From NCBI GenBank assembly GCA_900169235.1, contig FWCC01000067.1:1-64000 (forward strand): a stretch of 64,000 nt of DNA. Direction: 5' to 3'. Position 1 is the stretch's first letter; each line of letters begins with the position of its first letter. Made by a program: the position numbers and the translations under genes. Origin of the DNA: Zarea fungicola. Lineage: Eukaryota; Ascomycota; Sordariomycetes; Hypocreales; Cordycipitaceae. This document shows positions 9,612 to 44,263 of the stretch, in pieces. The notes under the pieces were generated by a model, which was not told where the DNA came from, did no database searches, and worked only from the letters and a program-made list of their open reading frames with translations.

Positions 9612-10663
9612 ATGCCTCCTGAAAGAGGCCGACAAAAGCATCTCATCTCCATACAATTGATCGTAGCCGAGTCCGTACCCTGTACTATGATGGCCGCCTT
9701 GCGCCAACCGAAATCGGCAAAATAACCGGCTTTAGCATCCACCAGGTTAAATATGCGATCCGGACCAGTAGCCCGACCCCAAGCCAACGTACCGGTCGGC
9801 CCTTAGCAATGTCATATAAACAAGAGGAGGAGCTAGTTGAATATGTCCGTGGCAGCCGGGACACTAGGCAAAAGACCTACTTGGAGCTTTCTTTGGCTCT
9901 ATTTGAGGGTCAATTTAGCAAATGGGTCATCAAACGAGCATTGTATCGTCAGGGCTTCCGTCGCCGTGTGGCTCGCCAAAAGCCTCCCATCTCAGAAACC
10001 AACAGAGTTAAAAGGCTAGACTTTGCTGAGGCACATAAAGACTGGACTCCAGCACAATGGGCAGCAATTCTATGGACTGATGAGACCTGGGTCAATGGTG
10101 GGACTCACCGGCAAGTACTCGTTACCCGTAGGGCCGGCGAGGAATGGGATCCTACCTGTATTGTTGATAAGCATCAACGGAAGCAAGGATGGATGTTCTG
10201 CGGGTGTTTTTCTGGCCAAGGGAAAGGCCCTGGTATTCTTTGGGAGAAGGACTGGGGTACAGTTACAAAGGAGTCGTATCAAGAACACACAGTGCCAGCC
10301 ATTACTGGCTGGATTGAGGTGGCCAGACGTGATGGAGAGACACTTTCGTTAACGCAAGATAGTGCCTCAGCTCACAAAGCAAAGGAGGCTATCCAAGATC
10401 TCTCAGAGCGTGGAATTGAACCAGCATTATGGCCTCCTTTTAGCCATGATTTGAACCCTATTGAGACCTGCTGGGACTGGATGAAGGACTATATAGAGGA
10501 TAAGCATGGCCAAAATGCTAAGACTAGCTATGACCAGCTCCGTGAGTACGTTAAAGAGGCCTGGGAGGCTCTCCCAGACGAATTCCTCCAGGCTCAAATA
10601 GCAGCAATGCCAGACAGAATGGCTGCAGTTATCACAGCTAACGGGCTACATACAAAGTACTAA
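9612..10663 (+). mobile_element. Tc1-like (DDE) transposase copy with a 5' frameshift
   Basis: The DDE domain is open from 9809 (MSYKQEEELV) to 10663. Acidic residues expected for catalysis are visible in WTDETW, QDSASAH and HDLNPIETCWDWMK, the last being the typical Tc1/mariner D-x34-E region. The same frame is open upstream from 9623 and encodes a helix-turn-helix-like block (LYYDGRLAPTEIGKITGFS) followed by a TPSQRTGRP linker, but it lacks an early ATG. The only nearby ATG, at 9612 (MPPERGRQK), is in another frame and reaches a stop after about 35 codons. One missing base in the A-run near 9633 would reconcile the two frames, so the copy is probably inactivated by a 1-nt deletion, or it starts at 9809 without the DNA-binding domain. 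Terminal repeats and a TA target duplication were not found by eye. Confidence 0.85.
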
Positions 10664-28139: not shown

Positions 28140-28146
28140 AAAAAAA
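28140..28146 (-). terminator. Pol III T-run of the left tRNA-Leu
   Basis: Seven A on the + strand (T7 on the coding strand) lie 8 nt after the 3' end of the minus-strand tRNA. The right copy has the same GAGATATC spacer and T7. Confidence 0.75.
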
Positions 28147-28154
28147 GATATCTC

Positions 28155-28263
28155 TGATGANNACCTTAACCTGGCGCCATAACCTGATAGGTCATTAGAT
28201 GTCGATCGACTAGTTATAGATAACAGTGTTGTAGGTTAAACTTACCAACTCGGCCATCTCACC
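28155..28263 (-). tRNA. tRNA-Leu(AAG), D-loop interrupted, 3' half lost in an assembly gap
   Basis: On the minus strand the gene starts GGTGAGATGGCCGAGTTG (28263 downward), the same acceptor strand, A-box and D-stem as the right copy at 32239. After a 62-nt insert (28245-28184) it resumes GTTATGGCGCCAGG and then TTAAGGT, which is the anticodon stem and the start of the loop with anticodon AAG. An NN gap (28161-28162) follows, then TCATCA. Compared with the right copy, about 50 nt (canonical intron, variable arm and T-arm) are replaced by the two N, so the gap is mis-sized. The gene is probably intact in the organism, but this cannot be verified from the window. Confidence 0.75.
28184..28245 (-). 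other. GT-AG insert in the D-loop of the left tRNA-Leu
   Basis: The insert is 62 nt, begins GTAAGTTTAACC and ends CTAATGACCTATCAG on the minus strand. It lies between GAGTTG and GTTATGGC of the tRNA. The ends resemble a fungal spliceosomal intron: GTAAGT donor, CTAAT branch-like element and CAG acceptor. Confidence 0.7.
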
Positions 28264-32238: not shown

Positions 32239-32392
32239 GGTGAGATGGCCGAGTTGGTAAGCAACCCTGAACAACTATCTAGTCAATCAGCTAGTGTCTA
32301 ACAACATCATAAGGTTATGGCGCCAGGTTAAGGTTACCTTAACATGTTTCCTGGTGGAGCAATCCTCGTGGGTTCAAATCCCACTCTCATCA
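32239..32392 (+). tRNA. tRNA-Leu(AAG) with a D-loop insert and a canonical anticodon-loop intron
   Basis: The acceptor stem GGTGAGA pairs with TCTCATC and the discriminator is A73, as in leucine tRNAs. The A-box TGGCCGAGTTGG (32247-32258) is intact. A 57-nt insert occupies 32257-32313. After it, GTTATGGC completes the D-arm. The anticodon stem CCAGG (32323-32327) pairs with CCTGG (32350-32354). The anticodon AAG is at 32330-32332, and the loop is split by a 15-nt intron (about 32334-32348) whose ACCTTAA is exactly complementary to the anticodon-loop TTAAGGT, as in classical pre-tRNA introns. A class-II variable arm (GGA-GCAA-TCC) and a perfect T-arm (GTGGG TTCAAAT CCCAC) follow. Removing both inserts leaves a fully canonical tRNA-Leu. 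T7 follows at 32401. Confidence 0.88.
32257..32313 (+). other. GT-AG insert in the D-loop of the right tRNA-Leu
   Basis: The insert is 57 nt, begins GTAAGC, contains GTCTAACAAC (matching a fungal branch site) 13-14 nt before the end, and finishes CATAAG. Exact removal gives GAGTTG-GTTATGGC, a normal D-loop with the invariant GG. The body differs from the insert in the left copy, although position and ends are the same. Confidence 0.75.
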
Positions 32393-32400
32393 GAGATATC

Positions 32401-32407
32401 TTTTTTT
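32401..32407 (+). terminator. Pol III T7 terminator of the right tRNA-Leu
   Basis: A run of seven T begins 9 nt after the discriminator base. This is a standard RNA polymerase III stop. Confidence 0.8.
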
Positions 32408-41994: not shown

Positions 41995-44263
41995 ATGCTA
42001 TCTGTGCGGATGCGCCCGGAAGGAACGCCGCGCAAGGATCGTCGAGCATCCAAGGCTTGCAGTGGCTGTCGGACACGCAAGGTGCGATGCGACGTCTTGA
42101 CGAGTGGCATTCCCTGCTCAAACTGCAGAGCAGACCAGTTCGAATGCAGCATCTTGCCGCGAAAAAAACGCGCCACCAAAAGCAAGAAGCAGCGGGAGGG
42201 CAATTGGGCTGCTCTCAATACCACCATTTCGGATGACTCTGGTTCCCTCGTCGGCGTCGCCCCAGCCGGGCACGTCACACAACACATTGCCCGACATCAG
42301 ATACCACACTATCCACTACTCAGAGACTTCACCGAAGGCAATGATGGAGATGAATCCGCCAGCGCAGACGGCCAAGCTTCCTTGGGAGCAGCCTCGACGA
42401 TTACACGTACAAGGCAGGTTCTACCGTCTCTTTCGCAGGAGGACATGCAGTACATGACCCTCAAAGGAGCCTTTGATGTGCCACCAAAGCAGGTGTTGAA
42501 CGATCTTGTGTCGAATTACTTTCGGGTTTTCCATCCATTTTTTCCAGTTGTGGATAAAAGGGCATTCTTGCAACAGTATGACGCCGCGACGGCGCAGGAC
42601 CGGTTCAACCAACACGGTATCAGCCTGCTTTTACTACAAACCATAATATTCACTTCTTGCGCTGTAAGTCTAAATCTAACCGGAGATGTTACCTTGCTAA
42701 CGAGACCGCACGTAGTCGATCGATGCGTCCGTGATCAGCAGCATGAAATTTACTTCGCGAAAGCAGGCGCGTGCAGTCTTTCACTCAAGAGCTCGAGTAT
42801 GTGATCAAGTCGATAGAGGTTGTGTAAATGTTTTTAACCATGCGGCGTTAGTGTCTCTATGAATTTGACTATGAAAAAGATAGTATTGTATCTGTTCAAG
42901 CCCTTCTTCTCATGAGCCATCATTATCCATCTATGACGGATCAGAAACACACCTGGTTTTGGGCGCAGCAAGCCATTGGCCTCGCCCAAGGCGCCGGACT
43001 GCACCGTGACCCGGGGCCAGTTTCCCAACGAAAGCACTGGGCGCGGATATGGTGGACATGTCTTTCCCGAGACAGGCTGATTGCGATTGGTACTGGAAGA
43101 CCCATGCACATCAACAGCCTCGACTGCGACGTCCCTATGCTTACGCTCGACGATCTTGCCGAAGACGGCGATGACGACGATATCATGGCCACCAAGACTA
43201 CCTTTATCGAGCTCATCAAACTGTGCCAGTATATGGAGTGTATTCTGCCACTGCATATTACGAAATCGACATCTGACAAATCGTTGGAAGAGCAGGTGGG
43301 GATATGTCAAGGAACGCTCCAAAGGTGGCTGGATCACCTCCCTGTTGCTGCACAGCTAGATCAGCCGACCAAAGCATCTCCGGGCTTGATATTTCCAATA
43401 TACCGAGCAGTTTTGCACATGATTTATAAGTACAAATTCCCATCTCGAACACCTACCACAACAAATCTGCTGACCAATGTGACTCTAGCATCGTGGTAAT
43501 AGCCTTGTATCAATCCCATCAAGCTGCTCCAAATTATACGCCAAGCGAGTCCCGTCTTCCACATCCCAGAGTCCAAGTGGCTGCACAAAATATCACCGAA
43601 CTGGCTGAAAGGCTAATGGAATTGGACGTTGTCAAGCTATGTCCCACAATATGGTGAAACTGAACTGTCCTAGGATCAATAAGGAAGCAAAATCACTAAC
43701 ACGGTTGCAGCGTCACCTCGATATTATCGTCGCTCATTGTACATCTCCTCATGCAGCATTTTAGCCTGGAAAAAGAAAACTGCGCAAGCGGCGCAAGCTT
43801 TGGAATATGTTTAAACTTCATTTCAGAGCTGAGCGACATTTATTGGCACGCAGGCTTTTACCATGATTTGTTCAAACTGGCGTTCAAAACGCAGGGAAAC
43901 CGCACCACCCCATTGTTGGATAATGATAAACACTCGGTTCTAGCATTCTTGCAGGAAACAACGAAAAATGGAAAGGCCACAAAACAGCCAAGGCTTGCTA
44001 CTCCGGAAATTTCTACCGCTGATGATATTGTCGAGGAGTCACAGACCCAGAACCAGCCGAGGGCTACTTCTACCGCTTATGAGTCGATGGTGGCAGAAGC
44101 GACGGGTATGGCTCCAAGCCAAGAGGTGACTGACACCGATGCTGTGGCCTTTGCTTCGGAATTCGAGTACCCGTCACTAGACAATTCAAATATCGATTCC
44201 GCTCTGTTTGAAGACTGGTTGAATGAGTGTGGATACTATTACAATAGTTTACCATCTGCCTAA
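41995..44263 (+). CDS. Zn2Cys6 transcription factor with fungal-specific TF domain
   Basis: The five-exon model join(41995..42663,42716..42796,42852..43429,43489..43653,43711..44263) gives 681 aa, with introns of 52, 55, 59 and 57 nt that are all GT-AG. The frame opens at a TTG at 41983; the first ATG is at 41995, with an alternative at 42010. The binuclear cluster is perfect: C22-x2-C25-x6-C32-x8-C41-x2-C44-x6-C51 (KACSGCRTRKVRCD, then PCSNC), followed by a basic linker (LPRKKRATKSKKQR). The middle-homology domain is evident in HPFFPVVDKRAFL, the LLLLQTIIFTSCA block and WARIWWTCLSRDRLIAI. The C-terminus is acidic and Ser-rich, suiting an activation domain. The gene is convergent with the dehydratase gene, the stops lying only 56 bp apart, and probably regulates that gene and the transporter beyond it. 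That is inference from position. Confidence 0.93.

Follow-up and report, generated by a model that had tools for sequence, protein, structure and literature searches.

Candidate spliceosomal (GT-AG) introns in tRNA genes of the fungus Zarea fungicola

In the 43.1-Mb assembly of Zarea fungicola (456 contigs), 17 tRNA genes carry 20 GT-AG inserts, distributed over nine tRNA sites. These inserts are very probably spliceosomal introns of the U2-type, GT-AG kind, at least 20 in the genome, lodged in tRNA genes transcribed by RNA polymerase III (Pol III). A wider proposition also appears likely: that all cytosolic tRNA-Asn, tRNA-Trp and tRNA-Leu(UAA) depend on the spliceosome, for at most two introns each, before the tRNA splicing endonuclease acts on them, so that an ordered two-machine pathway would serve a new class of tRNA intron that paralogues gain and lose.

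The type case is a leucine tRNA gene in the window, by which we mean the whole 64-kb stretch of DNA analyzed. Its features are as follows; the numbering of tRNA positions, here and below, is our own assignment.

32239..32392, plus strand: tRNA-Leu(AAG) gene with two introns, read from the sequence; the joined form is called tRNA-Leu(aag) by ARAGORN
32246..32257, plus strand: A box, TGGCCGAGTTGG, intact since the intron starts with G
32257..32313, plus strand: GT-AG (spliceosomal-type) intron, 57 nt, in the D-loop between positions 18 and 19
32257..32262, plus strand: 5′ splice site GTAAGC
32298..32302, plus strand: CTAAC resembling a branch point, its presumed branch A lying at 32301, 12 nt before the intron ends
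32311..32313, plus strand: 3′ splice site AAG
32330..32332, plus strand: anticodon AAG
32334..32348, plus strand: ordinary anticodon-loop intron, 15 nt, ends placed by eye
32371..32381, plus strand: B box, GGTTCAAATCC
32401..32407, plus strand: T7 run, presumed Pol III terminator

This is a type II tRNA gene in which the acceptor, D, anticodon, variable and T arms are all present, followed by T7. The 57-nt insert separates two G of the D-loop, and its excision yields GAGTTGGTTATGGC. The A box stays whole because the first base of the intron is itself a G. Downstream, the ordinary intron contains ACCTTAA, which is able to pair with the loop TTAAGGT. On both introns the letters agree with the original prediction, which had described an insert that begins GTAAGC, contains CTAAC, ends in AG and leaves a normal D-arm when removed, together with a 15-nt intron pairing with the anticodon loop.

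Annotation programs handle such genes poorly, as had been anticipated. ARAGORN reports no tRNA gene in the 64-kb window, and Rfam cmscan gives nothing above threshold there, none of its five matches up to E 5 being a tRNA. When large introns are allowed, ARAGORN miscalls 32239-32392 as a tRNA-Arg with a 78-nt intron; once the insert is excised, it returns tRNA-Leu(aag) with the 15-nt intron. The same behavior extends to the whole set. After joining, 16 of the 17 genes are called (14 with the isotype given here, two Trp genes as "???"), the remaining gene being interrupted by Ns. Uncut, only 5 of the 17 are called, three of these with the right isotype attached to a wrong structure, and the proposed structure is recovered in none of the five.

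A second gene of this kind, as claimed at the outset, lies in the window about 4 kb from the first and on the opposite strand.

28163..28263, minus strand: 5′ part of a second tRNA-Leu(AAG); a 2-N assembly gap at 28161-28162 has removed the 3′ part
28184..28245, minus strand: GT-AG intron, 62 nt, GTAAGT...CTAAT...CAG, at the same D-loop site as 32257-32313
28140..28146, minus strand: T7 run downstream of this copy

The 18-nt 5′ exon of Leu(AAG) occurs exactly twice in the window, with a third match at three mismatches; 0.03 chance matches with up to three mismatches would be expected there. A third interrupted Leu(AAG) gene was located elsewhere in the genome (C123:62791-62944), 93% identical to the window gene. 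Across the 39 nt common to all, the three genes agree exactly in their joined 5′ exons, as do the two full copies over 97 nt of joined sequence. Two-N gaps in or beside tRNA genes are found not only at window positions 28161-28162 but also at L188, L161 and L167, where repeated exons or T-runs have perhaps confused the assembly. Elsewhere in the window, positions 9809-10663 hold an open reading frame of 284 amino acids whose product looks like a Tc1/mariner-type transposase. The F-box/WD40 gene in the window has its nearest named relatives in Aphanocladium album (78% over 91%), Cordyceps species (81-82% over 73%) and Beauveria bassiana (75% over 90%), with other Hypocreales next and one other record closer, at 94%, in keeping with a filamentous fungus in or near Cordycipitaceae.

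Across the genome, the interrupted genes are distributed as follows.

Leu(AAG), three genes: insert in the D-loop
Leu(CAG), two genes: D-loop, at a different place from the Leu(AAG) site
Leu(UAA), one gene: within the anticodon, 34^35
Asn(GUU), three genes: anticodon stem
Lys(UUU), one gene: directly 5′ of the anticodon, 33^34
Thr(CGU), one gene: within the anticodon, 35^36
Pro(AGG), two genes: boundary of D-stem and D-loop
Trp(CCA), four genes: variable loop; three of the four have an additional insert at the end of the D-arm

None of the nine sites is the canonical one, a single nucleotide 3′ of the anticodon. That position is occupied by an ordinary anticodon-loop intron in the interrupted Leu, Lys, Pro and Trp genes, such that three Trp genes contain three introns each. 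The Trp copies (L134, L135, L151 and L152, on C318, C357 and C341) include one, L152, that lacks the intron at the D-arm end and thereby provides a natural gain/loss pair.

All Asn (3/3), Trp (4/4) and Leu(UAA) (1/1) genes found are interrupted, albeit in an incomplete census, and splicing is therefore probably obligatory for these three tRNAs. The census drew on searches with the tRNA family, with B boxes (100 listed of 224 places) and with B boxes of four stem classes followed by T5. Most places were fetched, excluding full-length RF00005 matches of ~72 nt and places whose 3′ sides were unlike an acceptor stem. The RF00005 search of the genome gave scores for 63 of 1250 candidates and passed over simple genes, Val(AAC) among them, making it unsuitable as a census. 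On the fetched loci ARAGORN found neither Gln(UUG) nor Gly(UCC), and its Arg(CCU) calls were all miscalls of Leu(AAG) genes; given these absences, uninterrupted Asn or Trp genes may likewise have been missed. A further 33 B-box places yielded no new tRNA gene, and two more loci proved to be known genes. The pattern of an A box with GTRNG gave 113 matches; the 100 listed include the three Leu(AAG) genes, and the others inspected (29 loci plus 6) contained no tRNA gene. One pair of these is a minisatellite (L144, C335:18700-19280) whose unit includes TGGCACAGTTGGTAAG, mimicking an A box with GTAAG. Relatives were also sought among prokaryote contigs and among viral contigs, each in a single exact-pattern scan, with no matches. 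The fungal assembly also contains a 73-nt gene that resembles tRNA-Thr(GGT) and looks bacterial or organellar (L172, C309:13985-14057).

The argument for spliceosomal introns begins with the signals that the inserts share. All 20 run from GT to AG with a G at +5, and 17 of the 20 have a T at +6. The 5′ splice sites are GTAAGT (9), GTACGT (4), GTAAGC (3), GTTAGT (3) and GTGAGT (1); the 3′ splice sites are CAG (14), AAG (4) and TAG (2). Within a length range of just 53-69 nt, every insert contains CTAAY with its A located 11-16 nt from the 3′ end. In 18 of the 20 this distance is 11 or 12 nt, and in two, both from Leu(CAG), it is 13 and 16 nt. Shuffled interiors place CTAAY at 5-20 nt in 3-17% of trials, depending on the intron; multiplied across the nine sites, this comes to ~10^-10.9, an approximation under the assumption of independence. 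Of the 133 distinct tRNA-like genes that were fetched, 14 of which lie on contig C218, apparently mitochondrial, 16 contain the composite GT..CTAAY..AG. All 16 are genes described here; the 17th interrupted gene falls outside the count since Ns cut it, and the other 117 genes have none. For comparison, the composite arises in 105 of 6000 random 210-nt stretches from the fetched loci and in 98 of 6000 from the window. Extending the scan by 210 nt upstream produced a single false positive, L002, a stretch whose start lies 5′ of an ordinary Arg gene, and this hit disappears when the scan is limited to gene bodies. Intron boundaries were set by visual inspection with the motif in mind, and 13 of the 20 (five of the nine sites) have no exact empty-site paralogue. 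In the other seven (Lys, Thr, the two Pro and the first insert of three Trp genes), uninterrupted paralogues hold the boundaries to one or two registers. A single register yields the joined sequence in 13 of the 20 inserts, and that register is GT-AG. Collectively, these signals, common to 20 inserts in 17 genes, support at the level of sequence both the description of the Leu(AAG) insert as spliceosomal-looking and the suggestion that two different cutting systems may be needed.

A second line of evidence comes from four mRNA introns in the same window, which were placed by protein homology (tblastn) using no motif. The splice choice was made by alignment score, which left three tied choices in each case, one of them GT-AG.

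GTGAGT..CTAAT..CAG, 71 nt: branch-like A 13 nt from the end
GTAAGT..CTTAC..TAG, 55 nt: A 11 nt from the end; CTGAT also present 3 nt from the end
GTACGT..CTAAC..CAG, 86 nt: A 12 nt from the end
GTATGG..CTGAT..TAG, 70 nt: A 9 nt from the end

Lengths of 53-69 nt in the tRNA inserts compare with 55-86 nt in these mRNA introns (n = 4), and branch distances of 11-16 nt with 9-13 nt (n = 4); CTAAY is replaced by CTTAC or CTGAT in two of the four mRNA introns. The apparent splice grammar is the same in the tRNA inserts and the four mRNA introns, down to the 5′ splice site GTACGT.

Excision of the inserts on paper restores ordinary tRNAs, in several cases with an uninterrupted paralogue for comparison. 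The joined Thr(CGU) gene is identical to its paralogue at 72 of 72 positions, counted over the Thr(CGU) gene in an alignment that spanned two neighboring genes. Joined Lys(UUU) matches its paralogue at 84 of 89 positions, and joined Pro(AGG) gives 85 of 89 and 87 of 90; the differences lie mostly within the ordinary intron. These empty sites also feed an alternative, namely that the interrupted genes are pseudogenes that have suffered insertions, which is how short insertions in the arms of eukaryotic tRNAs are usually taken according to one report (PMC4090602). Uninterrupted genes do exist for Lys(UUU), Thr(CGU) and Pro(AGG), along with three for Leu(AAG) arranged in tandem on contig C450 (matches at 43590-44085); an uninterrupted Leu(CAG) at C450:44216 is by our own reading a different gene. 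The original prediction had named several uninterrupted Leu(AAG) copies, together with a lack of RNA reads across the D-loop junction, as a sign that the interrupted ones are pseudogenes. As far as Leu(AAG) alone goes, the C450 trio supplies the first half of this and the pseudogene reading would survive, while Asn, Trp and Leu(UAA) turned up only in interrupted form. For the latter three, a pseudogene reading does not fit unless uninterrupted copies were missed, because all copies found are interrupted. Moreover, within families the joined genes are 94-100% identical, as opposed to 56-81% for the inserts, and the splice signals are kept in 20 of 20. For the set as a whole, pseudogenes are thus very unlikely.

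Similarly improbable is the notion that the interrupted genes are transcribed by RNA polymerase II (Pol II) inside longer transcripts and spliced there. It would accommodate ordinary pre-mRNA splicing, and the intron of the two Pro(AGG) genes does break the A box. Against it, 15 of the 17 interrupted genes have an intact A box, and B boxes (in the 16 genes without an N cut) and T5 or longer runs are present, partly by construction, as 16 of the 17 came from searches for a B box plus T5. The earlier idea that the window gene may be partly a Pol II product finds no support, its A box, B box and T7 all being in place.

The inserts could instead be tRNA introns of the non-canonical type, with the tRNA splicing endonuclease cutting at a bulge-helix-bulge as in archaea or Cyanidioschyzon, and their location is what lends this reading its appeal. 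Sites in the D-arm, anticodon stem and variable loop, and several introns per gene, are also known from archaea, C. merolae and nucleomorphs. In its strict form the bulge-helix-bulge core has intron +2..+5 paired with exon +2..+5 in a 4-bp helix. This central helix forms at 0 of the 20 junctions, whichever register preserving the joined sequence is taken, the best score being 3 of 4 in a single Thr register; random position pairs form it in 977 of 51000 cases (1.9%). Nor is the tRNA splicing endonuclease known to require fixed GT..AG ends or CTAAY at a fixed distance. Cleavage of the inserts by this enzyme is accordingly a most unlikely account.

Finally, copies of one mobile (introner-like) element, or self-splicing introns, might be imagined from the many sites within one genome, yet this is scarcely credible: among the 20 introns those at different sites share no stretch longer than 18 nt, at E 0.039 or more (0.042 for the 18 nt), target-site duplications are absent with a junction ambiguity of 0-3 nt, and at 53-69 nt the inserts are below the size of group I or group II introns, which are longer, and have folding energies similar to those of shuffled sequences (mean z -0.04). 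The whole-genome DNA searches used the Leu(AAG) and Leu(UAA) genes alone as queries.

If the inserts are spliceosomal introns, maturation may proceed in steps. Pol III would make the interrupted tRNA precursor, whose GTAAG-type start and CTAAY would be recognized by the U1 and U2 snRNPs, and the spliceosome would excise the GT-AG insert as a lariat in the nucleus. With the tRNA fold restored, the tRNA splicing endonuclease and a ligase would then take out the ordinary anticodon-loop intron. This spliceosome-first order is suggested by introns such as those of Lys(UUU) at 33^34 and Leu(UAA) at 34^35, which split the anticodon loop just 5′ of the ordinary intron. The Leu(UAA) intron also contains TTTTT (L065/L097, C98:27449-27604, the only Leu(UAA) gene found), possibly a premature Pol III terminator. 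Several tRNA genes, interrupted or not (L122, L155, L156 and others), have a TTTCAACAA-like stretch ~10-25 nt upstream, noted by eye, which is possibly a Pol III upstream element.

Such a pathway, if true, would mean that Pol III tRNA precursors are processed by the spliceosome across a whole genome, and that mRNA splicing is coupled to the supply of tRNAs reading Asn, Trp and Leu(UUA) codons. It would open intron gain and loss to study in very small genes whose paralogues have empty sites (Thr, Pro, Lys and Trp). It would also follow that essential genes can be missed or misinterpreted by tRNA finders that look for introns next to the anticodon alone. The accessible text on tRNAscan-SE 2.0 treats non-canonical introns for archaea (PMC8450103), and that of a Cordyceps genome paper lists 91 tRNAs and has nothing on such introns (PMC13254215). 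The accessible portion of the open-licence literature yielded no account of tRNA genes carrying spliceosomal introns, and one may exist elsewhere.

How, then, do the inserts relate to known systems? They resemble the mRNA spliceosomal introns of this genome in their ends, branch-like element, branch distance and length, and differ in host, sitting in genes with Pol III-type promoter boxes and a T-run. Ordinary eukaryotic tRNA introns (37/38), although present in several of the same genes, differ in position, length and splice signals, and no bulge-helix-bulge core forms at the GT-AG junctions. Introns of C. merolae and nucleomorph tRNA genes likewise occur in the D-arm, the anticodon arm and other positions, several per gene; those of C. 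merolae are linked to bulge-helix-bulge motifs, which the present inserts lack, and those of Guillardia are 3-24 nt long, many without a defined motif, in contrast to the GT-AG ends, branch element and 53-69 nt seen here (PMC3978253 and PMC4090602). As tRNA introns, the inserts would be a new class. As introns, they would be a known kind, spliceosomal by sequence, in a new class of gene, for which U6 is the nearest case. The sole U6 match in the Z. fungicola genome is full length and uninterrupted. The U6 snRNA of fission yeast is a Pol III RNA that loses an mRNA-type intron; it parallels the tRNA inserts in placing such an intron within a short non-coding Pol III transcript, and differs in being one snRNA as against several tRNAs here (PMC10484740).
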